A program made the position numbers and the translations under genes. The notes below the pieces were generated by a model. It was not told the DNA's origin. It did not search any database and worked only from the letters and a program-made list of their open reading frames with translations. Positions 18,429-56,704 of a stretch of 64,000 nt of DNA are shown here, piece by piece. Each line of letters starts with the position of its first letter. Positions within the stretch are counted from its first letter, which is position 1. This DNA comes from Eunapius fragilis (Eukaryota > Porifera > Demospongiae > Spongillida > Spongillidae): assembly GCA_963681505.1 (NCBI GenBank), contig OY811971.1, positions 21,481,353 through 21,545,352 of the forward strand. The letters are read 5' to 3'.

Positions 18429-19149
18429 ACAGTTGAAATATGGCTAGCGCAATGCTGTAATCTTTCAACACTCAATTATGATAAACCGCACCACCATATG
18501 CGTGTAGGCTATCTGACCTTCGCAACGGTCTGACAACCAACCAGTCGTTAATTTCTTGAAATGTTAACGTTCTCAAAATCCCACATCGATTTATAAATGC
18601 GCGGATATATGCCTAATTCCCATTGCCACGTGACGTGTTTCGTTGCTAAATGCATTAGCAGTGATGCCAGTGAACATTAGGACGCTAAAAAAATTGCTGT
18701 AACAGTGTCATGGTATGTTCATTAATGGTGTATATCATGCAAAGCTACTAGCTGCATGCAACAGGTAGCTAGTACACCCAAATTTATCCAGCATGCCACA
18801 ATTGACTTTTCAACTCGGATAATTTTTACGTTTAAACACGCAGTAAGCGAAAGCTTTAGTACAGGTCACTGAACGCTTATTGATTATGTGCCACAACTTA
18901 CCACCTACAAATGCAGCCATACAGAAATAATTCGAATAGAATTTCTGTTCTACATATACATTTAAAGTGGAATTGTTATTTTAACCCGTTATAAACAATA
19001 CGCCTCCTACACTTTCAGTAATAATCCTTACCAAGCAGCCAATGACACTTTTATACACTTAAAGTTGCTATATAAGATGTAAGGTGATGTACTATGGCTT
19101 CTTGGTTATAAATAAATGCCCCTGGCTTTAAAAAGTCGCTGCTGTTAAG
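18429..19149. other. Upstream region of the Ig gene
   Basis: About 720 bp with no recognisable gene. It would contain the Ig gene promoter on the minus strand, but no TATA box at a convincing distance is seen. Confidence 0.4.
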
Positions 19150-20560: not shown

Positions 20561-21277
20561 AATTACAATCAATGATTGGTATAACAATAGACAAAACTGT
20601 AAGGTCTGGCCAAAGTCCTACTCCACACATGATAACACACTCCCACCCTGAACACACTGTCACGCGCTCACTCACTTATTCCACACCTAATACATCAGAC
20701 AGATTCTAATTTCCTCACACAATCACTCCGTCCCTTCCACACTTACACAACAATGCTTCACGCACACTCTCATATACTATACGTACCAGCTCCCTCATTC
20801 ACTCAGACACACTCACTCACACACTCAAATGCTCAATACTCTCATTCCCTCACTCTGTCTCTTGCTGACTCGCTCAATTACTCACTCAAAAACTCACATC
20901 TTTTTTGCTCCTCATATACTCATTCGCTCACTCTCTCACTATACTTGCTCACTTACTCGCACATGCTTACACTTAATCACTCCTTCAACATTCACTAACT
21001 CCCTCACTCACACTCAATCATTTCATCACGTATACCGGCCCATGCTCCCCCATTCATCACACTAAAGTGGGGGACAGCATCGAGGAAGTATATAGAAATA
21101 CGGTAGTCCGGTGAAGCAGCTATATCAAGGTCCATGCATCAATGGATAGTATTTTTTATCTTCGATATTGGGATTAAGTATTTAGATGATTTTATTGCTA
21201 TGTAGAACTTTAATTTTTCAAGATAAAAAACAGTTAATTCTTTCAATTCCATATTTTGGACTCATTTCGGTACCGCG

Positions 21278-22996
21278 TTGATTTTTTCCCGCTATAGCCG
21301 GTTTCTTTGGGGCTTGAGGTACTATCAGCAATTTTTCGCACCTTTTTACTGTGTTCCGTTCGTTAACTACACATTTCTGAAGTTTTTACCCTACTTTCAC
21401 CTTTCTTACGTGGCTTGTGTCAATCTGCGGTTTGCTAAAGCAACCATGAAACTCAACACTTTAGGCCCGGATGTTTTGCTACATGCACGTAATCAATTAA
21501 ATATGGCTGTGCCTAGTGAGAACGCGAGCGCTTTACAGTTGAGATCCCTGGAGGCTACGATCGCACTATTGAAGAGAAAAAGGCCTCGCGCCCTTGCAGA
21601 GGAACAAAAACAAGATATTCTCGTCGCATACCACTCGCTGCAAGCCGAAGATGCCAAGGAACTGTTGGAAAATCCAGAACAGAAGCCTAAGGGACACTAT
21701 CAACAGCGGGTAGCTGCACTGCTGGGTTATTCGACAAAAACAGTCGGGCTGGTGTATCGTGATTGGCATCATCAGCAGGAGATTCAAGTCGCCATGCCAC
21801 CCGCCAATCGTCGTCCTAAACAGCAGCGCATACCCAAGTCGAATGACGTTCTCCTTGCTGTTCGCACCCTTGTGCGAGAGAAACGCTCAAGGAACGAACG
21901 GGTCGTTGCTCGACACGTGTTAGATCTGATGAGGCAGCGGATGTGGATAGTTGTGGACGAGCAGGACCCCAAAGCTTATGCCTCGTCATTGCGCTGTGTT
22001 CGACGCTATCTCTCGCAGCATGGCTACCGTCGCGGTGACTCAACTGCATTGCAGGTACGCGAAAAAGAATCTGTCGTTGTCGCGCGCATTCGATACTTGC
22101 AGCGTCTAGTTGACAATGATAGCGCACCAGTCAGTGAACAACTGCGCATTGTAGATCTGGATGAATCGTACATTCACCACCACTATCGTCGGGATCATGA
22201 CTCACTTTTTGATCCTCACGATACACAATCTGTTTGTGAGCGCACACAGAAAAAAGGCAAACGTTTTTGTTTTATTGCTGCTATTCAAAACAGCAGTCCT
22301 AGTAAAAGGATAAAGAATTCATCTGACAATGCTGGTTTGGTGCCTAACTCTGTGTGGATTTTCCAATCCCAAAAATCTTCAGGTGATTATCATCAAAATT
22401 TTAATGGAGCAAACTTTGTTCATTGGTTCAAAACGCAACTCTTGCCAAACCTTACAGAACCCTGTCTTATTCGTTTGGACAATGCACGATACCATTGTAC
22501 TAAACCTGAAAGTGTACCTAAAGTTGGTAAGGCAAAAAAGGCTGAGATTCAACATGTGCTAACTACACTAGGCATATCTTTTAATGCAAAGGATACGCTA
22601 TCAACTCTTAGACAAAAACTGAAAGCCTATGTTGCCTCAGTTGACGCTGAGATAGTGCAGTTAGCAAAGGAGCAGGGTCATGAAGTTTTGTATACACCTC
22701 CATATCATTGTGATCTGCAACCCATTGAAATGGTGTGGTCACAAGTTAAAGGGGAAGTAGGAAGACAGTATGATGTTTCCACTACCATGCAACTGGTACA
22801 TCAGCGCCTTGCTAAAGCATTTGAAAAGTTAGGTAGTGATACAACAGGTAGAGTGGAAAGACTATATGAGCATGTGCATCAAATAGAGCTAGAATATATG
22901 AGAATGGATGAGGATGATAGTGATGAAGCATCAGAAGAGTCTGAGGATGATAGTGATGAAGCATCAGAAGAGTCTGAAAATGAGTCTGATTTGTAG
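21278..22996 (+). CDS. IS630/Tc1-like transposase
   Basis: Up to 572 residues; the more likely start is Met at 21446, because the upstream part (Phe/Tyr-rich) reads like non-coding TIR. An N-terminal helix-turn-helix region contains QQRVAALLGYSTKTVGLVY. The catalytic triad is visible as Asp295 (VDLDESYIHHH), Asp401 (RLDNARYH) and Glu484 (DLQPIEMVWSQVK). The last two are about 82 residues apart, far more than the usual 34-37, because a segment with AEIQHVLTTLGISF and TLSTLRQKLK (SAP-like in appearance) is inserted between them. The C-terminus has two DDSDEASEESE acidic repeats. The frame is uninterrupted, so the element could be recently active. Confidence 0.9.
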   Translation: MIFSRYSRFLWGLRYYQQFFAPFYCVPFVNYTFLKFLPYFHLSYVACVNLRFAKATMKLNTLGPDVLLHARNQLNMAVPSENASALQLRSLEATIALLKRKRPRALAEEQKQDILVAYHSLQAEDAKELLENPEQKPKGHYQQRVAALLGYSTKTVGLVYRDWHHQQEIQVAMPPANRRPKQQRIPKSNDVLLAVRTLVREKRSRNERVVARHVLDLMRQRMWIVVDEQDPKAYASSLRCVRRYLSQHGYRRGDSTALQVREKESVVVARIRYLQRLVDNDSAPVSEQLRIVDLDESYIHHHYRRDHDSLFDPHDTQSVCERTQKKGKRFCFIAAIQNSSPSKRIKNSSDNAGLVPNSVWIFQSQKSSGDYHQNFNGANFVHWFKTQLLPNLTEPCLIRLDNARYHCTKPESVPKVGKAKKAEIQHVLTTLGISFNAKDTLSTLRQKLKAYVASVDAEIVQLAKEQGHEVLYTPPYHCDLQPIEMVWSQVKGEVGRQYDVSTTMQLVHQRLAKAFEKLGSDTTGRVERLYEHVHQIELEYMRMDEDDSDEASEESEDDSDEASEESENESDL

Positions 22997-23186
22997 TGTG
23001 ATATATCGAGTTCATAATGCAATTCTGATGATGCAGAACCAGAATTGTGAATTGCTTTATGCCATAGTGCATACTACTTAAATATAATCTCTTTAGTTTA
23101 ATTCCCTTTCGTGTTCTCAGTGCATTCAAGATTGAATTTGAATTGTCATGTGAATTTCAATCTAGATTTTCGAACACTGCGTGATG

Positions 23187-23832
23187 TCCGCTGTTGATAG
23201 TGTCCCTTAGGCTTCTGTTCTGGATTTTCCAACAGTTCCTTGGCATCTTCGGCTTGCAGCGAGTGGTATGCGACGAGAATATCTTGTTTTTGTTCCTCTG
23301 CAAGGGCGCGAGGCCTTTTGCTCTTCAATAGTGCGATCGTAGCCTCCAGGGATCTCAACTGTAAAGCGCTCGCGTTCTCACTAGGCACCGCCATATTTAA
23401 TTGATTACGTGCATGTAGCAAAACATCCGGGCCTAAAGTGTTGAGTTTCATGGTTGCTTTAGCAAACCGCAGATTGACACAAGCCACGTAAGAAAGGTGA
23501 AAGTAGGGTAAAAACTTCAGAAATGTGTAGTTAACGAACGGAACACAGTAAAAAGGTGCGAAAAATTGCTGATAGTACCTCAAGCCCCAAAGAAACCGGC
23601 TATAGCGGGAAAAAATCAACGCGGTACCGAAATGAGTCCAAAATATGGAATTGAAAGAATTAACTGTTTTTTATCTTGAAAAATTAAAGTTCTACATAGC
23701 AATAAAATCATCTAAATACTTAATCCCAATATCGAAGATAAAAAATACTACCCATTGATGCATGGACCTTGATATAGCTGCTTCACCGGACTACCGTATT
23801 TCTATATACTTCCTCGATGCTGTCCCCCACTT
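23187..23832 (-). repeat. Right TIR of the IS630-type element, mirroring the transposase 5' end
   Basis: Reverse complement of 21065-21709, including the first 140 or so codons of the transposase frame, so a truncated duplicate frame (about 157 codons) reads inward on the minus strand. Confidence 0.93.
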
Positions 23833-30170: not shown

Positions 30171-31340
30171 GACATAGAAAAAGTGTACTGTGTCATTGCT
30201 ATATAGTAATATATGGCCACACCCCTTTGTAAGACTTCTATGTATATACATTAACATGACATGTACATGTATGGAAACGTTCGGTTACACCCAGCTAGTC
30301 TCACAAGTGGAGATAGAATAGTACACAACATGTACATGTAAAGATGTAACAATACAACAAATGTAAGTTCACATCAGATCTTTCAGTTTCATTCAATTGA
30401 TGTAAGGCTTGATCCTATCAGGCCGGTGAAAATGATATCATTTAAAGATATCACACCATGCAAACATACCATACATACAATTTGGATGAAGACTATTGAG
30501 AAGGATAGATTCTTAGTGCACTCAGCTACTAAATGGCAGTAATACTGGTGCCACCTCCAAGCGCCAAGCCTCTAGCTAAACATTTTCATTCTGAATGCTC
30601 CGAAATCACATTCGCCTCTTTCAAACCACATTCTTAGCATCTTCACCTACTCACACAGATATAAGCACGTACAGACAATTGTAAACATATGTGGATGCAC
30701 ATGCACATACTGGTATAAAATGCAGACACATGCATACACACATCTTGACAGAATTGTGCTTTCTTCTCCTAGTGACATGCAGACACAGATACACACACAT
30801 GCGTACCCTATCTATGTAGCTGCACACATGCCAATATCCTCCCAAAAGGTCCTTCAATACAACCATAACATGTAAGAATGTTCACAGAACAATGAAAGCC
30901 CTACACAGCTAGGCACCAAAACATATTGCTGCCTGGGTCTATTTGGCACTGACTAAACATCACACAGTGAACTATAAAAACTTCAGAGTGACACCAAAGC
31001 AATCAAACTTCAGTGCTAACAGCCCACAGTTAGTCCACCAACCCTCCCCTTTGGCAGGAGTGCCCCAGTTATCAAGACTGTAGCTACATGCATCATGGTA
31101 GCCTCATCATGGGGTGTGGCAAAGCAGCCATCCCACCAACTGTGTGAGTGTATTACCCCTTGGCAACTTCTTCAAGTATGTGTATGTGTGTGTATGTGTG
31201 TATGTGTGTATGTGTGTGCGCATGTGTGTGCATGCAAGGTGAGTGTTAAGATCATGTGATGTGGTTTAGTAGACATTATTAGGTGATTAGGGTAAGTAGG
31301 AATGCTAGCATTAAATACCAAACCATCTTCATCAGGCACC
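30171..31340. other. Interior of the CACTA-like element, no gene recognised
   Basis: Unique AT-rich sequence with a short (TGTATG) repeat at 31176-31235. Frames that cross it are short and of biased composition. Confidence 0.4.
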
Positions 31341-31342
31341 TC

Positions 31343-32515
31343 ATGACAGTATGAGGTGAACACATGACAGTATGAGGTGAGCACATGACAGTATGAGGTG
31401 AGCACATGACAGCATGAGGTTAGCACATGATAACAACATGAGGTGAGCACATGATGACAGCATGAGGTGAGCACATGACAGCATGAGGTGAGCACATGAT
31501 GACAGCATGAGGTTAGCACATGATGACAGCATGAGGTTAGCACATGATGACAGTATGAGGTGAGCACATGACAGCATGAGGTTAGCACATGATGACAACA
31601 TGAGGGTAGCACATGTCAGCATGAGGTGAGCACATGATAACAACATGAGGTGAGCACATGATGACAGCATGAGGTGAGCACATGACAGCATGAGGTGAGC
31701 ACATGATGACAGCATGAGGTTAGCACATGATGACAGTATGAGGTGAGCACATGACAGCATGAGGTTAGCACATGATGACAACATGAGGGTAGCACATGTC
31801 AGCATGATGTGAGGCTGAGCACATGATGGCAGCATGAGGTTAGCACATGATGACAGCATGAGGATAGCACATGATGACAGCATGAGGTGAGCACATGATG
31901 ACAGCATGAGATTAGCACATGACGACAGCATGAGGTGAGATCATGACAGCATGAGGTGAGCACATGATGACAGCATGAAGGTAGCACATGTCAGCATGAG
32001 GTGAGCACATGATGGCAGCATGAGGTTAGCACATGATGACAGCATGAGGATAGCACATGATGACAGCATGAGGTGAGCACATGATGACAGCATGAGGTGA
32101 GCACATGATGACAGCATGAGATTAGCACATGACGGCAGCATGAGGTGATGAGGTGAGCACATGACAGCATGAGGTGAGCACATGATGTCAGCATGAGGTG
32201 AGCACATGACAGCATGAGATGAGCACATGACAGCATGAGGTGAGCACATGACAGCATGAGGTGAGCACATTATGTCAGCATGAGGTGAGCACATGATGAC
32301 AGCATGAGGAGAGCACATGATGTCAGCATGAGGTGAGCACATGATGACAGCATGAGATTAGCACATGACAGCATGAGGTTAGCACATGATGACAGCATGA
32401 GGATTGATGACAACACGAGGTGAGCACATGAGACAGCATAAGGTGAGCACATGATGTCAGCACATGATGACAGCATGAGGTGAGCACATGACAGCATGAG
32501 GTGAGCACATTATTA
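31343..32515. repeat. 24/21-bp minisatellite array, about 1.2 kb
   Basis: Roughly 50 tandem copies of GCACATGATGACAGCATGAGG with a variable GTGA/GTTA/GATA end. Units of 24, 21 (one ATG missing) and 27 bp are mixed, and a higher-order period shows where 31430-31610 and 31625-31800 repeat one another. Long open frames on the minus strand arise only because unit lengths are multiples of three. Confidence 0.95.
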
Positions 32516-34553: not shown

Positions 34554-37470
34554 GCAACTGTCACAGCTTCCTGATTTGGAATAGCAAATGCTTCCATCCA
34601 TTTAGAGAAATAGTCAGAAACCACAAGCACATAGTTATTTCCACTACAATATCGACTGCTATAATTTGCATGGGGTATCCCGCCTGCATACTTTGCAGTG
34701 GTGCTCGCCTCCTCTGCTACGGACTTTTCCTCGCTGCACAATCAGCACAACACCTGCACCACACTTTCACGGCTTCAACATGCCCTGGCCAATAAAAACG
34801 CTCCTGAAGTCTGCTCAAGGTCTTGGCTTCACCTAGGTGCCCTCCCGATGGTGCATTGTGCACTTTGTGTAACACATCATCCCGACTCACCTTGGGCACT
34901 ATCATTTGGAGATGACTATATCCATTGGCATCCTCATGCTGTCTATACAAAACGGCATCTTTCAACACAAGCTGGTTCCATTGCTCCACAAGTTGTGTGA
35001 ATTCTCTGCAGGCCCCTTTATACTTATCAGGATCCGGTCTCATCCCCTGACACATCGCATGATACAACGGCCCAATGGCTTCATCACTCTGCTGCAGCTG
35101 CTGTACGGAGTGATCTAGTACCGATGTCGAAGCAATGCAAGCTTCTTGACTAGGCTGGATGTTGGATCTGGAAAGGGCGTCGGCATTTCCATGATCCCGC
35201 CCCCTGCGATGAATCACCTCAAAATCAAATTCTTGTAGCATCTCCAGCCATCTGGCCGTTTGCCCTTCTGGTTCTTTGAAACTATATAACCATTGTAGTG
35301 CACTGTGATCTGTTCTAAGGACAAAGCGTCGCCCAAGTAAGTAAGACCTGAAATGTTTCGCAAATGTTACCACAGCCAAAAGTTCTTTCCTTGTTACTGA
35401 GTACTTCCGTTCTGCCTTGTTGAGGACCCGGCTAGCATATGCCACAACCTTCTCGCACCCATTGACTTCTTGTGAAAGCACTGCTCCCAGCCCGTACTCG
35501 CTTGCATCTGCATCCAAAATGAAATCATTGCTAAAATCAGGAAAAATAAGTATGGGGGCGGACACAAGAAGAGTTTTCAATTTCCTAAATGCTTCAGCAC
35601 ATTCTGACGTCCACTTGAAGTCCCTCCCTTTTTCCGTCAAACGGTACAATGGCTTTGCGATACCAGCAAAGTTTTTAACATACCGCTTATAGTACCCCGC
35701 CAGTCCGAGAAACCTCTGCAATTCCTGCACTGTTGCTGGAGTCGACCACTTGCTTACAACATCCACTTTGGACGGATCCGTTGAAATGCCCTCACGGGAA
35801 ATCTTATGACCTAAATATAACACCTCTTTGCGAAAGAATGCACACTTTGACAATTTCATCTTCAGTCCCGCCTCCCTCAACTTATCCATCACTACGCGTA
35901 AATTAAGCAAATGGTCATGAAATGACTTCCCCATAACAACTATGTCATCTATATACACTAAACATCTGCTCCATTTAACCCCAGCAAGCACCATATCCAT
36001 CAGCCTCTGAAAAGTTGCTGGTGCATTACACAACCCAAACGGCATTACCTTGAACTCGAATAATCCCTCCCTGGTTGAAAATGCTGTTTGTGGCCTGTCT
36101 TGCTCGCTCACTTCCACCTGCCAGTATCCTGACAGTAAATCCAATGTTGAGAACCATTTCGAGCCCCCTAATGCCTCCAAGGTTTCGTCAATCCGTGGTA
36201 GCGGGTATGCGTCTTTGCGGGTCACAGCATTTAGTTTCCTGTAGTCAATGCAGAACCGCATTGTGCCATCTTTCTTCTGAACGAGTACAACAGGTGATGC
36301 CCAAGGACTTGCAGACGGTTGAATGACATCTTTCTGGAGCATTTCGTCCAACAACTTGCGAACCTCACGTTGTCTTGCCACGGGAATCGACCTACTAGGT
36401 TGCTTTATTGGTGGGGCTTCACCTGTGACAATAGAGTGCTGCACCACTGCTGTACGTCCCAGCTCTTCGTCCTTATCGGCTAAAACATCTTCATACATTA
36501 ACAGCACGGTCAACAATTCCTCACGCTCCTCCTCTGACAAGTCATCACAGCTCTGCACACAGTTGTATAACATCTCTCTTTTCTGTGCCGATATTCCACC
36601 CACCACCCTATTGTCCACAGGACCATGTACAGTCGCTGCAATGTGACTATCTTCAATCCTCTCAGCCCTTGCAACTACCATTCCCTTGTAAACAGTAACT
36701 GCTACTGGCGAAGGATTTACCATACGCACTGGTATACACCCCAACTCACAATCCTGTATGGGCTTGACAACAGCACCCGCAACAAGAACTTGGGGCACAT
36801 TCTGGTCTCTCAGGCCTTCTACCAACCAGGTTCCGCTACCACATAGAGAATTTGTGCTTGCTAAAACTTCAACTTCGCTCCAAGCTGGAACAGTTACATT
36901 CTCCATCAGAGTGGCCCTGGCCTGACACACCAAATCAACCTCCTCACATCCTGCAGTCTCTAATGGAATCTTTAAGCCACGACACTGCATAACCATATTG
37001 GGTACATCAATAATACAGGCATGTTTTTTCAAAAAGTCAATGCCCAATAGAGACTGGACACTTAGTGTACTTACAACAACAAACTCTACTGCAAGCCTTT
37101 GACCCCCTACCAATATGTCCATGCTAACAACACCCTCCACATCAACAGGACTCCCGTTCACACCTACCAACGTCCCCCCGTTCCATTGTTCCATTTTAAA
37201 CTTTGCACCACCAAGTCTCATCCATTGTTCCTTTCCCAGAAGGCTGACTGCAGCTCCAGTATCAATCATCAACGTTAGGGGAACTTGATGCACAGATGCT
37301 GTGATGAAGTAAGATTTTGAGGGATTAACAGCAAAATTAGTAACAACAAAAGAAGATTGGACCTTTCTGATGCCCTCTTGCGCATGGTCCTCTGCGCTGA
37401 GGGCAGTCAGTTTCCCTGTTTCTTTCTTCGCAGAGCACAACCTCTGGCAAAATGCCCCGCCTTTCCACAC
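34554..37470 (-). pseudogene. Gypsy copy 1 pol, N-terminal part with protease, RT, RNase H and broken integrase
   Basis: Reads through protease (LMIDTGAAVSLLG), reverse transcriptase (LVYIDDIVVMG), RNase H (ILDADASEYG and RTDHSALQWL) and the integrase zinc region, then meets a TAG at 34717-34719 where the intact copy has a Gly codon. A 22-bp deletion at 34645/34646 shifts the frame further on. The retained YIDD and protease motifs show that the lesions are confined to the integrase portion. Confidence 0.93.
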
Positions 37471-38255
37471 CTATAACACAACAGTTCTTTCTTTTCCTGC
37501 TCTTCTTTCTTAGTTGTTCCTTTTCCCGAGGGTAGCTGGTCAGTCTTTCTTTCGTTTTCCAACTTTTCCAACCGTTTTGTGATTGAGTCTAGCAACTGCA
37601 CGACCCCGGGTTGCACCCGAACATTGCAAACATCATACCCATTCTCTGGTTCTTCCGCCTGCACCGCTGAGACCCTAGTCGGCTCCTCCTTCCTCATCAG
37701 TGCATAGGATTCCATTTCCAGAGTACACGACACTGCTTCTTCAAGCGTTTCTGGCCTCTGCTGACGCACCGCAAGTGCAATATTCGCATCACTCAACTCA
37801 CCCAAATACCTATCGAGGGTCAAAACTTCTTTGGCATCCTCGGAGAGGGTTGGAAACGCTTTGTCAGCCAGACACCGCAGCTGGTCGGCGAAGTCACCCC
37901 ACTGCTCTCCTTTCTTTCTTTTCCTTAGACGGAACTCCGCCGCGTAACGTTCTCTCTTACTGCTGGGCTCAAACCGGTTACGCAGAGCATCCATAGCAGC
38001 CTGAAAGTCTCCTTTCGCCTCGTCCGATAACCGCTTCCACGCCGTCTGTGCCTTTCCCGTTAACCTCACCGGCAACCAATTCAGTTTAACGGAGTCATCC
38101 CAGCCGTTCACCTTTGCTACCGCCTCAAAATGGTCGGCCCAGTCGGTCCAACTGGAATCCCCAGTATAGGCATCGGGAGTCACCACCGGTCTGGTAGCCC
38201 TCGTGGGGTACGCCGTTCCTGGTCCTCCCGAAGACTCCGGTTGCCTTTCCACCAT
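37407..38255 (-). CDS. Gypsy copy 1 gag
   Basis: About 283 residues from Met at 38255. It has a capsid-like region (WADHFEAVAKVNGWDDSVKL…) and a C-terminal CCHC zinc knuckle (CYRCGKAGHFARGC). It overlaps pol by about 60 nt in a different frame, consistent with -1 frameshifting. The frame is intact. Confidence 0.92.
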   Translation of the reverse strand: MVERQPESSGGPGTAYPTRATRPVVTPDAYTGDSSWTDWADHFEAVAKVNGWDDSVKLNWLPVRLTGKAQTAWKRLSDEAKGDFQAAMDALRNRFEPSSKRERYAAEFRLRKRKKGEQWGDFADQLRCLADKAFPTLSEDAKEVLTLDRYLGELSDANIALAVRQQRPETLEEAVSCTLEMESYALMRKEEPTRVSAVQAEEPENGYDVCNVRVQPGVVQLLDSITKRLEKLENERKTDQLPSGKGTTKKEEQEKKELLCYRCGKAGHFARGCALRRKKQGN

Positions 38256-38273
38256 CCTGCCGACTACGCCACT

Positions 38274-38448
38274 TGTAACGACCTTGGTTAGCGCAACCAA
38301 ATGTATAATCACAGGAAAGACAAAAGACCCAATAGTACAGCACGCATACACTTAAATAGTCAATTCCTAGAAGGTTCGAGATGTACATGCATTTCTTGCG
38401 CAAGCGCATTAGTAGCGACAATCAAGATTATTGGAGTCTCCTGTTACA
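38274..38448 (-). repeat. 5' LTR of gypsy copy 1
   Basis: 175 bp; differs from its 3' LTR at the C/A site and at one private substitution near 38437 (GGAGTCTCC against GGAGCCTCC). Confidence 0.95.
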
Positions 38449-38743: not shown

Positions 38744-40612
38744 ATGATCAAGGTACTGATGGTTTTTGCTGCTCTGATGGTAGCCTCTCTCGAGGCTCGC
38801 GGTGTTCTCGAGAACATGATTGCGCATACACTTCGCGATGGTGCTCGGAACGCGGTGAGGGTGTATACATTTGCATGCATATATGGCGCCCTATACGTAT
38901 TTTCACATTCGTATTTCACATCCACTGTTCAGGAACTACTGGAAACAAGCGGCAGTGAGTTGCAGTATTAGTGTGACATTACGTCATGTATGACACTGAA
39001 TTCTACAGAACCGTACACCTACGTCAGTGTGGAAGATGATGGCAAAGTTAAGATTCGTAAGTGAATGCAAAATGACCAACATGAGCATGCATGCATGCAT
39101 GCACGTATGATTATTATATCGTAATTAATCGCGCTGCGTCATGGTTTAACGGAATAATATGTGCATTTTTACTTTTGTGCATGGCGATCGCTGCATGCAT
39201 GTATGTAACCGCGCGCGGGTTGCTTATTCGAAATAATTGTAGAAATGATGATTTTGTTGGCCGTTTCATCGTGCCTTTCATTTAGACACCGTGCACCCTG
39301 CGGGAACCAGAGAAAATTCAGAGTAGGCCATTTGCCGCCCACCGTGCACGCGAACCTGCGAAATAAACCGTCGTTGATTTCACCGCTAAATAGGACAGTT
39401 CGTGAAGAAATTGTACGTTGCATATTTTGCTTACTCTGTTGATCATTAATGTTTAATTTCATTTTTCGTTGTAGTGTGTGGTAAGAGGCGACATCGCATT
39501 CCGTTGATGCTTGGCAAGTGACATGAAGCGTTCACTCTCAACTTGTTCCCAACTGTCGCATATGTGTTTTCGTCAATCGTCTGTCCTATGAAATAGGCAG
39601 TAAGTAAATAAACCTGCGCAATAATATGCTGAGGAATGACTGCATGTAACTTCTCTCTCCTTCGTAAACATCGCGGCGAAGTGCGTAAGTTTTGTTTATT
39701 CGTTAAATGCTTTTCACGTGTGCTCAGGCATGCCCATTCATCTCCGTGTCGTGCATCTAATACAGATTGTAAGCACCTGTTTGTGGATCACATGCATGGT
39801 GTGCACCTAAACCATTTCAATCCTTTAAAAATATCAAACGACTTGTATATAGTTCGTAAGTGCTATACATGTATACTGTTTTGTAAATCGTCATGCATGA
39901 CTGTAACTGTACTTCCCTTTTGTGTGCATTGCATGCGGTCACCCAACGACAAATTAAAGGGAGTAAGTTTCTTAATCATCTATCTCCGTTTTTAATTCGA
40001 GCCCTGCTGACGGCATTGCATGGGAAATGTTTGCAGTGGTGTGTAAGTAACATGCATGCAGTCAATGTAGTGTATCAGTGTAACGGGGATTTTGTATTAT
40101 CCCATGCACGCAATGGTGCTATGCAGCCGGTACGTATATATCATAGCACTGCGCACGCATGCTGTATTTCACTTTCTACCACTGCGTGAACCCAACATGT
40201 ATAGCCTGTATGTTCCAATGGTTCCATTTGTATTGAACATACATGTTTTACGCACCAGTTTTTTTTTTTTTTTTAGCCACTGGTAAGTGCATGCATAATT
40301 CATTAAATTTGCGAAAGTATCACTTGCACGCTGGGACACGATTGGTTTCGGTGAACAACGAAGAAAGTAAGTTGTAGCTGCACTAATGCTATATATTTAC
40401 TGCAAACAAATGACATTTATTTCTTCCGTCAGTGCGTAAGTATTTAAACTCCTAGTCCATTGCAAGGAGCGTGCATTTATCCTTAATTTCTCCTTCTACA
40501 ACATCACGCATGCATGCACGCTTTTGTAGTGCGTAAGTCGATACTTCAGCATACGTGTCCCACAACAAATATTCATTGCTTTTTCCACGTGCGCGTTGTG
40601 CTATGCAGCCGG

Positions 40613-40654
<42 letters not shown>

Positions 40655-41391
40655 TTTGATGGTACTTTTATATAATTTGCACTCAACCCACAGGACGTAA
40701 GTGCATGTCTTACTACGAAATAACGCGCCGTCTTTATTCCTACTCCATGCAAACTATTTGTATCCTCCCACTATACGCAGAAAGTAAGGGAATAAGAGTA
40801 TATACATACATCATTGAAAAACATATTTTGTATGACCTTTTTTGCGCGGATTTGCTTCGTTTTCGGCTCTCAAAGTATGCAAGTATATCAATGGTTACGA
40901 TATTATTCAGTTGACTCGTGACATTCCTCAATTGCAAAATTCTCTATTGTCAGTGTGTAAGTTCCACAGTGCATGATGTGATTCTATCTCACATATAACC
41001 GCATTCTATTATTTCATAGTATGTGCCGGTAAGTGCACATGCATCGTTCATGTCAATAGCGATCTACATGTATGTACTTCGTTCTCTACGCCCAACAAAT
41101 CTGCGGTTGGATTCTTTAGGGAGTAAGTTTACCTTTTTTTGGCGGAAACTTACAGTTTATCAACTTGTCTGCTGCTCAAAAATACCGATCATTGTGAACG
41201 AAAATGAATAAGGCTGTAAGTACATGTACTCCTTTTTACATCGGCTATGTAACACAATCGACGTCGATTTTGTCACTGGCGTATATTGAAATGCTCAGGG
41301 TGTAAGTACTAATATTTTTTCGTGGCAGTTTAGCGTTGTTAGCATCACACAAATGCTATTACCCCTTTTTCAGTGCAATACGATTGGTTAG
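38744..41391 (+). CDS. Small secreted cysteine-rich protein built from 27 exons, 22 of them microexons of 3-9 nt
   Basis: Exon 1 (38744-38854) encodes a signal peptide (MIKVLMVFAALMVASLEARG). Exons 2-4 (38933-38954, 39009-39056, 39243-39412) encode a pro-region. Then come 22 microexons, listed as a separate feature, and a last exon at 41374-41391 ending in TAG. Phases agree at every junction and the total is 450 nt, 149 residues. The microexon segment and last exon contain seven Cys codons, in exons starting at 39475, 39682, 40037, 40433, 40530, 40954 and 41374; two are adjacent after joining. The rest are mostly Pro, Gly, Lys and Asp codons. Such composition after a signal peptide and pro-region resembles secreted knottin-like peptides known from demosponges; that function is inferred. 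Exon 4 also starts with a hydrophobic stretch (MMILLAVSSCLSF), a possible alternative start. Its acceptor at 39242 was chosen over 39285 because only it keeps the frame. Confidence 0.85.
39475..41391 (+). other. Array of 22 consecutive microexons plus terminal exon
   Basis: 3-nt exons begin at 39597, 39682, 39766, 39853, 39960, 40127, 40205, 40364, 40433, 40530, 40609, 40694, 40781, 40876, 40954, 41120, 41213 and 41299. 6-nt exons begin at 39475, 40037 and 40277; the 9-nt exon is 41020-41028; the last exon is 41374-41391. Each is preceded by AG and followed by a strong donor. Twelve of the 3-nt exons are exactly AG-NNN-GTAAGT; the other donors are GTAAGC, GTAAGG, GTACGT, GTATGT (twice) and GCAAGT at 40879, a GC-AG intron. 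Introns are 62-116 nt, most between 66 and 94. Every exon is a whole number of codons in phase 0. Confidence 0.87.
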
Positions 41392-51637: not shown

Positions 51638-54600
51638 TTACGAGTACGGCACAGCTCCATAATAGACCGGTGCACGACGATTTCGCCTAGGGTACCGATG
51701 TTGATTTTGCACCACCTCTTCTTGTGATGGGACCTCCTGTTGAGGAAGTTCATCATGTTGCATGGCCACCTCTTCTTGTGATGGGACCTCCTGTTGAGGA
51801 AGTTCATCATGTTGCATGGCCACCTCTTCTTGTGATGGGACCTTCTGTTCTTCATTCTGAATGTCACGCTCTAGGGCTTCATGCCCATCCTCATGAGCCT
51901 GCAGTTCAGGTAGCTCCTGCTGTCTTGGCATTCTCATTTGTCCCCTATCCCTTGGCTGTATCTCCAGACTTTCCTCATCGTCGTCCACAATCCTCAAATC
52001 TGTACCCACATGGCAATGCTCCTGCATCAGAGGCAACTGATTTTCTACTTCCTGTGGTGAGTGGTCCTTCCCAGGTCTTGCTGCTTGCATAGAGGGGCAA
52101 GGTTTCAAGCGATCAAAATGGACTACTAACCGCTTGCGCCTGTTTGTGTCTTGAATTCTATAGACCACTGTGGAGAGCTTCTTCACAACTCTATAGGGCC
52201 CAGTCCATGGACAGTGTAATTTCCTCTTCGCTCCTTTAGGGATAACAGGGTTGTGCAGCCAAACTAAATCGCCCACCTGATATTCATCCCCATGGACTTT
52301 CCTGTTATACAACTCCTTCTGTCGCTCCAGAGCAGCCCCCGTGCGATTCCTAACTGTCGAATAAGCTTCCTCAAACGTTTGCCGCAGGTTTCTGACATAC
52401 TCCTGTGTTGTCATCTCTTCCATAGGGGCAGTCCCATAAGCAAGATCGACAGGTAACCTCGCTTGACGGCCAAACAATAGAAAAAATGGTGAAAAACCTG
52501 TGGATTGGTGGACAGAAGTATTATAAGCCATACACACTAGCCTTAACTTTTTATCCCAATCTCCAGGGTGCTCATGCACAGTTGCAGCTAACATACTCAG
52601 AAGTGTCCGATTTAGACGTTCTACCAAACCATCAGATTGGGGATGATAGGCCGTTGTCCGCGTCTTGTCAATGTGCAGCAATTTGCAAACTTCTTGCATA
52701 AGCTTCCCCTCGAACTGTCGGCCCTGATCAGAGTGTAGCTGTTCCGGGATAGAAAATCGGCAAAATACTTCTTCCACTAACTTCTCAGCAACTGTCACAG
52801 CTTCCTGATTTGGAATAGCAAATGCTTCCATCCATTTAGAGAAATAGTCAGAAACCACAAGCACATAGTTATTTCCACTCTGCACTGGTGTAAATGGCCC
52901 GACAATATCGACTGCTATAATTTGCATGGGGTATCCCGCCTGCATACTTTGCAGTGGTGCTCGCCTCCTCTGCCCCGGACTTTTCCTCGCTGCACAATCA
53001 GCACAACACCTGCACCACACTTTCACGGTTTCAACATGCCCTGGCCAATAAAAACGCTCCTGAAGTCTGCTCAAGGTCTTGGCTTCACCTAGGTGCCCTC
53101 CCGATGGTGCATTGTGCACTTTGTGTAACACATCATCCCGACTCACCTTGGGCACTATCAGTTGGAGATGACTATATCCATTGGCATCCTCATGCTGTCT
53201 ATACAAAACGGCATCTTTCAACACAAGCTGGTTCCATTGCTCCACAAGTTGTGTGAATTCTCTGCAGGCCCCTTTATACTTATCAGGATCCGGTCTCATC
53301 CCCTGACACATCGCATGATACAACGGCCCAATGGCTTCATCACTCTGCTGCAGCTGCTGTACGGAGTGATCTAGTACCGATGTCGAAGCAATGCAAGCTT
53401 CTTGACTAGGCTGGATGTTGGATCTGGAAAGGGCGTCGGCATTTCCATGATCCCGCCCCCTGCGATGAATCACCTCAAAATCAAATTCTTGTAGCATCTC
53501 CAGCCATCTGGCCGTTTGCCCTTCTGGTTCTTTGAAACTATATAACCATTGTAGTGCACTGTGATCTGTTCTAAGGACAAAGCGTCGCCCAAGTAAGTAA
53601 GACCTGAAATGTTTCGCAAATGTTACCACAGCCAAAAGTTCTTTCCTTGTTACTGAGTACTTCCGTTCTGCCTTGTTGAGGACCCGGCTAGCATATGCCA
53701 CAACCTTCTCGCACCCATTGACTTCTTGTGAAAGCACTGCTCCCAGCCCGTACTCGCTTGCATCTGCATCCAAAATGAAATCATTGCTAAAATCAGGAAA
53801 AATAAGTATGGGGGCGGACACAAGAAGAGTTTTCAATTTCCTAAATGCTTCAGCACATTCTGACGTCCACTTGAAGTCCCTCCCTTTTTCCGTCAAACGG
53901 TACAATGGCTTTGCGATACCAGCAAAGTTTTTAACATACCGCTTATAGTACCCCGCCAGTCCGAGAAACCTCTGCAATTCCTGCACTGTTGCTGGAGTCG
54001 ACCACTTGCTTACAACATCCACTTTGGACGGATCCGTTGAAATGCCCTCACGGGAAATCTTATGACCTAAATATAACACCTCTTTGCGAAAGAATGCACA
54101 CTTTGACAATTTCATCTTCAGTCCCGCCTCCCTCAACTTATCCATCACTACGCGTAAATTAAGCAAATGGTCATGAAATGACTTCCCCATAACAACTATG
54201 TCATCTATATACACTAAACATCTGCTCCATTTAACCCCAGCAAGCACCATATCCATCAGCCTCTGAAAAGTTGCTGGTGCATTACACAACCCAAACGGCA
54301 TTACCTTGAACTCGAATAATCCCTCCCTGGTTGAAAATGCTGTTTGTGGCCTGTCTTGCTCGCTCACTTCCACCTGCCAGTATCCTGACAGTAAATCCAA
54401 TGTTGAGAACCATTTCGAGCCCCCTAATGCCTCCAAGGTTTCGTCAATCCGTGGTAGCGGGTATGCGTCTTTGCGGGTCACAGCATTTAGTTTCCTGTAG
54501 TCAATGCAGAACCGCATTGTGCCATCTTTCTTCTGAACGAGTACAACAGGTGATGCCCAAGGACTTGCAGACGGTTGAATGACATCTTTCTGGAGCATTT

Positions 54601-55726
54601 CGTCCAACAACTTGCGAACCTCACGTTGTCTTGCCACGGGAATCGACCTACTAGGTTGCTTTATTGGTGGGGCTTCACCTGTGACAATAGAGTGCTGCAC
54701 CACTGCTGTACGTCCCAGCTCTTCGTCCTTATCGGCTAAAACATCTTCATACATTAACAGCACGGTCAACAATTCCTCACGCTCCTCCTCTGACAAGTCA
54801 TCACAGCTCTGCACACAGTTGTATAACATCTCTCTTTTCTGTGCCGATATTCCACCCACCACCCTATTGTCCACAGGACCATGTACAGTCGCTGCAATGT
54901 GACTATCTTCAATCCTCTCAGCCCTTGCAACTACCATTCCCTTGTAAACAGTAACTGCTACTGGCGAGGGATTTACCATACGCACTGGTATACACCCCAA
55001 CTCACAATCCTGTATGGGCTTGACAACAGCACCCGCAACAAGAACTTGGGGCACATTCTGGTCTCTCAGGCCTTCTACCAACCAGGTTCCGCTACCACAT
55101 AGAGAATTTGTGCTTGCTAAAACTTCAACTTCGCTCCAAGCTGGAACAGTTACATTCTCCATCAGAGTGGCCCTGGCCTGACACACCAAATCAACCTCCT
55201 CACATCCTGCAGTCTCTAATGGAATCTTTAAGCCACGACACTGCATAACCATATTGGGTACATCAATAATACAGGCATGTTTTTTCAAAAAGTCAATGCC
55301 CAATAGAGACTGGACACTTAGTGTACTTACAACAACAAACTCTACTGCAAGCCTTTGACCCCCTACCAATATGTCCATGCTAACAACACCCTCCACATCA
55401 ACAGGACTCCCGTTCACACCTACCAACGTCCCCCCGTTCCATTGTTCCATTTTAAACTTTGCACCACCAAGTCTCATCCATTGTTCCTTTCCCAGAAGGC
55501 TGACTGCAGCTCCAGTATCAATCATCAACGTTAGGGGAACTTGATGCACAGATGCTGTGATGAAGTAAGATTTTGAGGGATTAACAGCAAAATTAGTAAC
55601 AACAAAAGAAGATTGGACCTTTCTGATGCCCTCTTGCGCATGGTCCTCTGCGCTGAGGGCAGTCAGTTTCCCTGTTTCTTTCTTCGCAGAGCACAACCTC
55701 TGGCAAAATGCCCCGCCTTTCCACAC
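51638..55726 (-). CDS. pol: Gypsy copy 2 pol polyprotein
   Basis: 1362 codons. Aspartic protease near residues 65-80 (LMIDTGAAVSLLG); reverse transcriptase about 370-560 with YIDD near 505; RNase H about 640-780 (ILDADASEYG, RTDHSALQWL). The integrase HHCC zinc region lies at about 865-912 and the DDE core at about 935-1035 (AVDIVGPF, SDQGRQFEG, GLVERLNRTL). A GPY/F module is near 1175 (WTGPYRVVKKL). The tail carries three copies of an 18-residue acidic repeat (VPSQEEVAMQHDELPQQE) before RYPRRNRRAPVYYG. It overlaps gag by 64 nt in the -1 frame, so it is expressed by frameshifting; the listed start is simply the first Met in the overlap. All catalytic motifs are present. Confidence 0.96.
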   Translation of the reverse strand: MWKGGAFCQRLCSAKKETGKLTALSAEDHAQEGIRKVQSSFVVTNFAVNPSKSYFITASVHQVPLTLMIDTGAAVSLLGKEQWMRLGGAKFKMEQWNGGTLVGVNGSPVDVEGVVSMDILVGGQRLAVEFVVVSTLSVQSLLGIDFLKKHACIIDVPNMVMQCRGLKIPLETAGCEEVDLVCQARATLMENVTVPAWSEVEVLASTNSLCGSGTWLVEGLRDQNVPQVLVAGAVVKPIQDCELGCIPVRMVNPSPVAVTVYKGMVVARAERIEDSHIAATVHGPVDNRVVGGISAQKREMLYNCVQSCDDLSEEEREELLTVLLMYEDVLADKDEELGRTAVVQHSIVTGEAPPIKQPSRSIPVARQREVRKLLDEMLQKDVIQPSASPWASPVVLVQKKDGTMRFCIDYRKLNAVTRKDAYPLPRIDETLEALGGSKWFSTLDLLSGYWQVEVSEQDRPQTAFSTREGLFEFKVMPFGLCNAPATFQRLMDMVLAGVKWSRCLVYIDDIVVMGKSFHDHLLNLRVVMDKLREAGLKMKLSKCAFFRKEVLYLGHKISREGISTDPSKVDVVSKWSTPATVQELQRFLGLAGYYKRYVKNFAGIAKPLYRLTEKGRDFKWTSECAEAFRKLKTLLVSAPILIFPDFSNDFILDADASEYGLGAVLSQEVNGCEKVVAYASRVLNKAERKYSVTRKELLAVVTFAKHFRSYLLGRRFVLRTDHSALQWLYSFKEPEGQTARWLEMLQEFDFEVIHRRGRDHGNADALSRSNIQPSQEACIASTSVLDHSVQQLQQSDEAIGPLYHAMCQGMRPDPDKYKGACREFTQLVEQWNQLVLKDAVLYRQHEDANGYSHLQLIVPKVSRDDVLHKVHNAPSGGHLGEAKTLSRLQERFYWPGHVETVKVWCRCCADCAARKSPGQRRRAPLQSMQAGYPMQIIAVDIVGPFTPVQSGNNYVLVVSDYFSKWMEAFAIPNQEAVTVAEKLVEEVFCRFSIPEQLHSDQGRQFEGKLMQEVCKLLHIDKTRTTAYHPQSDGLVERLNRTLLSMLAATVHEHPGDWDKKLRLVCMAYNTSVHQSTGFSPFFLLFGRQARLPVDLAYGTAPMEEMTTQEYVRNLRQTFEEAYSTVRNRTGAALERQKELYNRKVHGDEYQVGDLVWLHNPVIPKGAKRKLHCPWTGPYRVVKKLSTVVYRIQDTNRRKRLVVHFDRLKPCPSMQAARPGKDHSPQEVENQLPLMQEHCHVGTDLRIVDDDEESLEIQPRDRGQMRMPRQQELPELQAHEDGHEALERDIQNEEQKVPSQEEVAMQHDELPQQEVPSQEEVAMQHDELPQQEVPSQEEVVQNQHRYPRRNRRAPVYYGAVPYS

Positions 55727-56511
55727 CTATAACACAACAGTTCTTTCTTTTCCTGCTCTTCTTTCTTAGTTGTTCCTTTTCCCGAGGGTAGCTGGTCAGT
55801 CTTTCTTTCGTTTTCCAACTTTTCCAACCGTTTTGTGATTGAGTCTAGCAACTGCACGACCCCGGGTTGCACCCGAACATTGCAAACATCATACCCATTC
55901 TCTGGTTCTTCCGCCTGCACCGCTGAGACCCTAGTCGGCTCCTCCTTCCTCATCAGTGCATAGGATTCCATTTCCAGAGTACACGACACTGCTTCTTCAA
56001 GCGTTTCTGGCCTCTGCTGACGCACCGCAAGTGCAATATTCGCATCACTCAACTCACCCAAATACCTATCGAGGGTCAAAACTTCTTTGGCATCCTCGGA
56101 GAGGGTTGGAAACGCTTTGTCAGCCAGACACCGCAGCTGGTCGGCGAAGTCACCCCACTGCTCTCCTTTCTTTCTTTTCCTTAGACGGAACTCCGCCGCG
56201 TAACGTTCTCTCTTACTGCTGGGCTCAAACCGGTTACGCAGAGCATCCATAGCAGCCTGAAAGTCTCCTTTCGCCTCGTCCGATAACCGCTTCCACGCCG
56301 TCTGTGCCTTTCCCGTTAACCTCACCGGCAACCAATTCAGTTTAACGGAGTCATCCCAGCCGTTCACCTTTGCTACCGCCTCAAAATGGTCGGCCCAGTC
56401 GGTCCAACTGGAATCCCCAGTATAGGCATCGGGAGTCACCACCGGTCTGGTAGCCCTCGTGGGGTACGCCGTTCCTGGTCCTCCCGAAGACTCCGGTTGC
56501 CTTTCCACCAT
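55663..56511 (-). CDS. gag: Gypsy copy 2 gag
   Basis: About 283 residues from Met at 56511, chosen over the upstream in-frame Met at 56607 because that one lies inside the LTR. A capsid-like helical region is followed by a charged segment and one CCHC zinc knuckle (CYRCGKAGHFARGC). The ATG directly abuts the primer-binding-site-like sequence, so there is almost no untranslated leader. Confidence 0.93.
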   Translation of the reverse strand: MVERQPESSGGPGTAYPTRATRPVVTPDAYTGDSSWTDWADHFEAVAKVNGWDDSVKLNWLPVRLTGKAQTAWKRLSDEAKGDFQAAMDALRNRFEPSSKRERYAAEFRLRKRKKGEQWGDFADQLRCLADKAFPTLSEDAKEVLTLDRYLGELSDANIALAVRQQRPETLEEAVSCTLEMESYALMRKEEPTRVSAVQAEEPENGYDVCNVRVQPGVVQLLDSITKRLEKLENERKTDQLPSGKGTTKKEEQEKKELLCYRCGKAGHFARGCALRRKKQGN

Positions 56512-56529
56512 CCTGCCGACTACGCCACT

Positions 56530-56704
56530 TGTAACGACCTTGGTTAGCGCAACCAAATGTATAATCACAGGAAAGACAAAAGACCCAATAGTACAGCACG
56601 CATACACTTAAATAGTCAATTCCTAGAAGGTTCGAGATGTACATGCATTTCTTGCGCAAGCGCATTAGTAGCGACAATCAAGATTATTGGAGCCTCCTGT
56701 TACA
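56530..56704 (-). repeat. 5' LTR of gypsy copy 2
   Basis: 175 bp; differs from the 3' LTR of the same element only at the A/C site (C here). Confidence 0.96.

Follow-up and report, generated by a model that had tools for sequence, protein, structure and literature searches.

Can a gene carry a long run of consecutive exons that are each a single codon? The question is raised by a locus in a 64,000-nucleotide (nt) stretch of DNA from the sponge Eunapius fragilis (hereafter the window; C1:21481353-21545352 in a 218.9-Mb assembly of 24 contigs). At 38744-41391 on its + strand, a gene model of 28 exons keeps one frame from an ATG and signal peptide to a TAG stop (336 nt, 111 residues), and exons 6-27 are microexons. 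We judge it likely, at a probability of about 0.88, that the locus is a gene coding for a secreted Cys-rich precursor through 22 consecutive microexons, and that it belongs to a gene class spread over the sponge genome. The coding reading, proposed in an initial annotation of this DNA, is backed beyond the window by genome-wide avoidance of stop codons, by exon lengths that are multiples of three, and by relatives with the same plan.

The window gene

The pattern AGNNNGTAAGT is found 19 times on the two strands of the window, against 2.07 expected (standard deviation 1.45; maximum of 100 shuffles, 6). Twelve of the 19 matches lie within 39595-41307 on the + strand, and these are the twelve exact AG-NNN-GTAAGT sites counted in the initial annotation, whose chance figure of 1 in 65,536 per position is correct for eight fixed bases and equal composition. 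Exact exon assembly between 39475 and 41301 gives 18 microexons of 3 nt, three of 6 nt and one of 9 nt, followed by a terminal exon with the TAG at its end (41374-41391), in agreement with what had been proposed; the single frame from signal peptide to stop was likewise borne out. The upstream part had to be revised: four exons had been counted there, for 27 in all, and in this model the frame needs five (111, 22, 48, 37 and 19 nt), the extra one being the 19 nt at 39394-39412, for a total of 28. Exons 1-5 are predicted to encode the signal peptide and pro-region of the precursor. The donor is GTAAGT in 15 of the 22 microexons, and the array introns measure 63-116 nt (median 82). The exons are as follows.

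38744..38854, +, exon 1, 111 nt, start codon and predicted signal peptide MIKVLMVFAALMVASLEARG...; donor GTGAGG, phase 0 end
38933..38954, +, exon 2, 22 nt; acceptor TTCAG, donor GTGAGT
39009..39056, +, exon 3, 48 nt; donor GTAAGT
39286..39322, +, exon 4, 37 nt; donor GTAGGC, weakest in the model
39394..39412, +, exon 5, 19 nt; acceptor AATAG, donor GTACGT; brings back phase 0
39475..39480, +, microexon TGTGTG (CV); donor GTAAGA
39597..39599, +, one-codon exon GCA (A); AGNNNGTAAGT match and exon assembly
39682..39684, +, one-codon exon TGC (C); AGNNNGTAAGT match and exon assembly
39766..39768, +, one-codon exon ATT (I); exon assembly, donor GTAAGC
39853..39855, +, one-codon exon TTC (F); AGNNNGTAAGT match and exon assembly
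39960..39962, +, one-codon exon GGA (G); AGNNNGTAAGT match and exon assembly
40037..40042, +, microexon TGGTGT (WC); exon assembly
40127..40129, +, one-codon exon CCG (P); exon assembly, donor GTACGT
40205..40207, +, one-codon exon CCT (P); exon assembly, donor GTATGT
40277..40282, +, microexon CCACTG (PL); exon assembly
40364..40366, +, one-codon exon AAA (K); AGNNNGTAAGT match and exon assembly
40433..40435, +, one-codon exon TGC (C); AGNNNGTAAGT match and exon assembly
40530..40532, +, one-codon exon TGC (C); AGNNNGTAAGT match and exon assembly
40609..40611, +, one-codon exon CCG (P); exon assembly, donor GTATGT
40694..40696, +, one-codon exon GAC (D); AGNNNGTAAGT match and exon assembly
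40781..40783, +, one-codon exon AAA (K); exon assembly, donor GTAAGG
40876..40878, +, probable one-codon exon TAT (Y); exon assembly, GC donor GCAAGT
40954..40956, +, one-codon exon TGT (C); AGNNNGTAAGT match and exon assembly
41020..41028, +, microexon TATGTGCCG (YVP); exon assembly
41120..41122, +, one-codon exon GGA (G); AGNNNGTAAGT match and exon assembly
41213..41215, +, one-codon exon GCT (A); AGNNNGTAAGT match and exon assembly
41299..41301, +, one-codon exon GGT (G); AGNNNGTAAGT match and exon assembly
41374..41391, +, terminal exon, CNTIG and stop TAG; acceptor TTTTTCAG

With its terminal residues the predicted array peptide, which would make up the mature part of the precursor, is CVACIFGWCPPPLKCCPDK(Y)CYVPGAGCNTIG, where (Y) comes from the TAT exon. 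The model is weakest at the GTAGGC donor of exon 4, at exon 5 with its 19 nt, and at the TAT exon; dropping the latter leaves 21 microexons and one 170-nt intron. Its GC donor is plausible, since a one-codon exon AAG with a GCAAGT donor recurs in four mutually related loci of another family (L013, L015, L016 and L017). No full-length paralogue of the gene emerged: apart from the gene itself, its first 79 residues match nothing but a truncated copy of exon 1. This copy, at C1:21480980-21481153, is followed by unrelated sequence and lies in a locus (L030, C1:21473000-21482500, -) that holds the truncated exon 1 and the upstream region, 94% identical to the window gene over 258 bp.

Triplets as codons across the genome

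Pairs of the pattern at intron distance number 593+926 (1519) genome-wide versus 145+283 (428) for the reversed pattern, and triples 233+352 (585) versus 84+146 (230). Pairs whose first triplet is a Cys codon are cleaner than all pairs (139 versus 8 in the control), and among the first 100 of these 139, paired one-codon exons fall at 53 or more places over 3 kb apart, on 15 of the 24 contigs; this recount omits two plain short repeats among the 100, and a few single pairs among the 53 places may be chance.

The locus set comprised the window and 28 array loci (L009-L024, L031-L042), joined later by L046-L050; L025 and L026 (no array) and L030 (truncated exon 1 only) were left out, and L018 gave no chain. 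A chain finder that permitted any exon length from 1 to 15 nt found, in 29 loci with the window among them, exons of 3 nt (461), 6 nt (25), 9 nt (13), 12 nt (4) and other lengths (24), i.e. 503 multiples of three among 527, with 4 short chains in the controls (complement, reversed and reverse-complement). An earlier splice-site model, whose training set came largely from a single intron family, had overlooked the others and was replaced. When the distance from each GTAAGT to the nearest preceding AG is taken in 34 loci, it is 3 nt in 446 of 537 cases, a peak that is partly by construction since the loci were chosen by the 3-nt pattern, which does not apply to the 6-nt (20 cases) and 9-nt (9 cases) distances or to the stop tests below. 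Distances of 4, 5, 7 and 8 nt account for 4, 4, 1 and 5 cases, and the 25 cases at 1 nt are the expectation for AGN codons. Among these 34 loci, L047 has the most one-codon exons in a row, 29.

Stop codons are avoided by frame and genome-wide. Concatenated exons of 3n length only, from 23 of 32 loci, hold no in-frame stop among 462 codons, versus 13 of 438 and 32 of 438 in the other two frames (25 expected); nine close relatives were dropped, including the locus with the sole stop (L016), and some related loci stay. In the genome as a whole, TAA and TGA were compared with TAT and TGT: AG-TRA-GTAAGT followed by another unit occurs once (control, 3), while AG-TRT-GTAAGT occurs 154 times (control, 8). 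Cys codons make up 84 of the 461 array triplets.

Upstream exons were read in 31 loci, and 13 have a signal-peptide exon. The window gene is one of them, with a type of its own; MLKEL...DARP precedes L019-L024, L039 and L041, MLVLIAALFALSAI(A/T)VEARS precedes L013, L014 and L016, MASIIVKVAVIAAVFVIAVHG precedes L034, and MLVLIAALFALSAIAVEARS is among the types in the 13 loci. By eye, L049 also starts with MLKEL, and the pro-region exon ends in phase 0 ahead of the array in L024, L041, L049 and L019. The upstream stretch is shorter than 0.5 kb in seven of the 31 loci.

These observations bear on the simplest non-coding explanation, a minisatellite whose ~91-nt tandem repeat contains CAG-NNN-GTAAGT by accident and is never translated. 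The young arrays L009, L010, L049 and L050 are indeed tandem repeats of similar units, and L009 and L010 are without a convincing signal-peptide exon in the stretch read. A minisatellite would, however, have no reason to avoid stops by frame and across the genome, to be preceded by signal-peptide exons and entered in phase 0, or to keep splice signals and 3-nt spacing in old arrays where intron similarity is almost gone. In L049, L039, L024, L031, L042 and L010, though not in L041, the triplet also shows more variation than the bases flanking it. We regard this explanation as highly improbable.

Related proteins occur outside the species too. The named proteins that match the L041 precursor are from Ephydatia muelleri, and the exon 1-2-3 joins of the MLKEL family are present in several gene models of that sponge. 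Three of 25 sequences (P0006, P0010 and P0015, all E. muelleri) run on as X-VSI(N/H/T)(D/N)V, the translation of a codon and the unspliced start of an intron, GTAAGTATCAATGATGTT. Because these three models read from a one-codon exon into an array intron, the same array class is probably present in E. muelleri and mis-annotated there. P0006 was considered as a spliced array ending in CCC and rejected: its end corresponds, by eye, to ordinary 3′ sequence of L041 and L033, and a search of the E. fragilis genome with the first 70 residues matched signal-peptide exons alone, so it is not counted as proof. Of two Ephydatia/Spongilla genome papers (PMC7385117 and PMC12141999), the former says nothing of microexons in its passages on exons and introns.

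Besides the choice of loci and the restriction of the frame test to 3n exons, several points weigh against the coding reading. The reversed-pattern control is high for pairs and triples, probably from short tandem repeats. Of the 527 chain exons, 24 have lengths that three does not divide, and the finder probably erred in some of these. The only in-frame stop among the array triplets examined is a TAA in L016 (3573-3575, - orientation; C1:18029344), where the sister loci L013 and L015 have TAT; this locus is either a broken copy or one with a truncated product. In eleven loci whose upstream stretch exceeds 0.5 kb (L009-L012, L015, L017, L032, L035, L037, L038 and L046), no convincing signal-peptide exon was seen. 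The window model itself has non-consensus donors (exon 4 and the TAT exon), and we infer the splicing of every exon from the sequence. The E. muelleri models halt at the array or read into it without splicing it, which fits mis-annotation but lends no support. Codon and flank divergence, compared over unambiguous units in nine paralogue pairs, differed significantly in none (p 0.075 to 1), and therefore no general claim of accelerated evolution is made.

Products and origin of the arrays

The predicted array peptides include CHTRPACPLSGNCRSGVKIGGQTYCCCMV (L036), TALACPKLPGCIFYPTTGSCCC (L033), GKGGKRGGPRGGGPRGPKIGGGG (L049) and LRRRPRPRPDPLRLLPPLLPPIRG (L050). Their composition (Cys-rich, Gly/Arg-rich or Pro/Arg-rich) and predicted secretion suggest a diversifying set of secreted defence-type peptides. 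Database searches added little: seven array proteins or peptides were compared with Pfam and none scored above a cut-off, a PDB sequence search with the window array peptide only gave nothing significant (one match, E 4.6), and Rfam had no match in the window at its thresholds. A protein-database search with the window protein returned only the window's own unspliced open reading frame (P0001), and one with the predicted precursor of L013 returned no match.

It may be that the exons are real and many are skipped, so that one gene would give a large set of peptides, each without different single residues. Skipping would keep the frame, since so large a share of the chain exons are multiples of three, and the micro-exon genes (MEGs) of schistosomes are reported to yield alternatively spliced isoforms (PMC10399815). 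On the other side, the donors are near optimal, and the Cys-Cys-Cys end common to arrays L031, L033, L036, L041, L042 and L046-L048 argues for a fixed product. We think combinatorial splicing of this kind rather unlikely.

How such genes arose cannot be read from the window gene itself and is suggested only by its relatives, arrays of graded similarity within one genome. In the youngest, L049, an 88-nt intron and a codon form a tandem repeat of ~91 nt in which the introns are ~95% identical and the codons differ. Median intron identity within arrays is 0.95 in L049, 0.86 in L050, 0.84 in L009, L010 and L039, 0.80 in L031, 0.78 in L047, 0.77 in L042, 0.72 in L024 and L048, 0.68 in L041 and L019, 0.55 in L013, and 0.53 in L040 and the window, where it is 0.52-0.53 depending on the choice of units and shuffled introns give 0.49. 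Introns that are near-identical between differing codons when young, with that similarity decayed when old, are the reason why the genes seem to grow by duplication of codon-and-intron units. Codon redundancy declines as the introns decay. In three groups of loci with intron identity of at least 0.70 (9 loci), of 0.58-0.70 (8 loci) and lower (10 loci), with six near-duplicate loci dropped, synonymous homozygosity is 0.63, 0.44 and 0.41, and the share of third-position T is 0.64, 0.51 and 0.35. A hand-made age grouping for codon use (0.64, 0.48, 0.41) had split L042 and L024 despite their similar identity and was replaced by measured identity. Young arrays strongly favour one codon for most amino acids (CCT 29 : CCG 5, ACT 10 : ACC 1), less so for Gly (GGA 20 : GGT 7). 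A second young intron family, at C5:10690591-10691816 (-), has CCA where the first has CCT, and 11 of 13 triplets among those listed there end in A (CCA, ACA, AAA, ATA), not T; a difference of this sort between the two families is expected if codons are copied along with their units.

An origin from introners, in which copies of a mobile intron would have split up an older, uninterrupted coding sequence codon by codon, would also place near-identical introns between unlike codons and spread one intron family over many contigs, as is seen here, and introners are enriched in aquatic species according to passages of PMC9860276. One 88-nt intron has at least 574 matches at E<=1e-3 (40 of 162 candidate regions scored), many of them exactly 88+3 = 91 nt apart; among the matches listed, most cluster in arrays. 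The spacing is exactly one codon, repeatedly, and the lower codon diversity of young arrays points to copying of codon-and-intron units. In L049, codon and intron variants often recur jointly in blocks, which is taken as the mark of tandem duplication of such units. Introner insertion is improbable. Under unit duplication, a codon together with one short intron (63-116 nt in the window) would be copied in tandem, both to found an array and to lengthen it, and since the unit holds exactly these, a duplication would add and a deletion remove one residue in frame. Introns would later drift until splice sites and codons are nearly all that is left, as in the window gene.

The longest block duplicated within L049 shows 4 differences in 528 intron bases, against 9 in 18 codon bases, or 6 in 15 over the five codons with intron matches on both sides; the Fisher values, for a block chosen post hoc, are 2.9e-12 (9/18) and 2.9e-8 (6/15). 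This excess could reflect diversifying selection, codon exchange between units, or both. A comparison of L031 with L047 (55% codon versus 9.5% intron divergence) was discarded, the units not being orthologous. A bolder, tentative reading is a codon-cassette system: a pool of hundreds of similar units, each a codon flanked by halves of the same intron, from which secreted defence peptides might be built and rewritten residue by residue. Units would be duplicated in tandem, deleted or partly exchanged over short stretches, with introns acting as handles for recombination, and the codons would be joined by a splicing ratchet. We lean against it; if it holds, a protein would evolve by codon shuffling and not by base mutation.

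The surroundings of the gene hold other elements. The - strand of the window carries two retrotransposon-like copies (34717-38351 and 51638-56607) whose long open frames are almost identical; the first copy begins just upstream of the gene. By eye, an open frame at 21227-22996 (+) is DDE-transposase-like, with an inverted partial copy of its start at 23146-23670 (-), and open frames at 15833-18443 (-) resemble exons of immunoglobulin-domain receptors. A minisatellite with a ~24-nt unit repeated 49 times occupies 31336-32510, and long open frames run along its - strand. Elsewhere, C9:9625139-9675257 holds cox1 fragments with stops, probably nuclear copies of mitochondrial DNA, and contig 24 holds cox1 in code 4 (nine TGA as W in the translated stretch), nad4L and, nearby, full-size tRNAs for Arg, Ser, Asp and Cys, a gene content that we take to fit a demosponge mitochondrion.

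Splicing and known systems

An exon of 3 nt can hardly be bound at both its ends at once. Since it cannot hold both splice complexes simultaneously, intron definition would apply, with the near-perfect GTAAGT donors marking each intron for stepwise removal. Joining an exon to the next NNN would give NNN followed by GTAAGT, a new 5′ splice site three bases downstream, in a recursive-like ratchet; stepwise removal from 5′ to 3′ is the simplest order because a donor would be ready for the next step after every join. The most plausible splicing route thus combines strong donors, intron definition and removal in a stepwise, recursive-like order. The exon-junction complex would have to be avoided at array junctions; it represses recreated 5′ splice sites near junctions, as described in PMC6224609. 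If all this is true, the spliceosome can join one-codon exons by the dozen, one after another, a feat for which models of exon definition leave no room. Direct tests would then become possible of the order in which introns are removed, the crowding of splicing factors and the placement of exon-junction complexes. With arrays of all ages in one genome, the class would further show how a gene can grow and change residue by residue without frameshifts, which is exon shuffling taken to its limit. Because 3-nt exons are hard to place, current annotation may be missing families of secreted peptides.

A literature search for single-codon, 3-bp or 3-nt exons found no published codon-by-codon architecture, its one match being a paper on the mitochondrial genomes of fungi, a weak negative given its thin coverage of subscription journals and preprints. 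Tiny exons of plants and animals are reported in passages of PMC4674806 and PMC8831610, where the 1-nt exon of APC11 and 3-nt exons indicate that even an exon of 1-3 nt is within reach of the spliceosome. The APC11 study likewise argues that so small an exon can hardly be bound at its two ends together, and favours intron definition with recursive, successive removal (PMC4674806). Those exons are described there singly or at most two adjacent, whereas the sponge exons come in long series. In recursive splicing, too, a 5′ splice site forms anew where two pieces have been joined (PMC6224609). It takes the form of zero-nucleotide ratchet sites and of RS-exons; the ratchet sites differ in that they subdivide long introns and leave no coding residue, while each sponge step would leave one codon. 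Introners and tandem intron gain (PMC9860276; PMC4974935) likewise yield families of near-identical introns, but in the sponge the multiplied unit carries a codon and accumulates within one gene.

The closest known systems are the schistosome MEGs and the bicycle genes of aphids, both with larger exons. Like the Schistosoma MEGs, the sponge genes encode predicted secreted proteins from tiny exons that are mostly multiples of three and hard to annotate, and they share the plan of a signal-peptide exon followed by many short 3n exons. Passages of PMC10526429 give for S. mansoni exons of mostly 15 bp (minimum 6 bp in its text, 3-81 bp in its abstract), 10-20 short exons per gene and introns of 0.1-5 kb; in the window 18 of 22 microexons are 3 nt and the array introns are 63-116 nt, about 82 nt as a rule, and the sponge class differs also in its runs of up to 29 one-codon exons and its visible tandem units. 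Bicycle genes form large, fast-diverging families with many microexons and are implicated as secreted effectors, and one 'megacycle' gene has more than 100 microexons (PMC9168663). Their internal exons are almost all in phase 2, whereas the sponge array exons are in phase 0 and one codon long.

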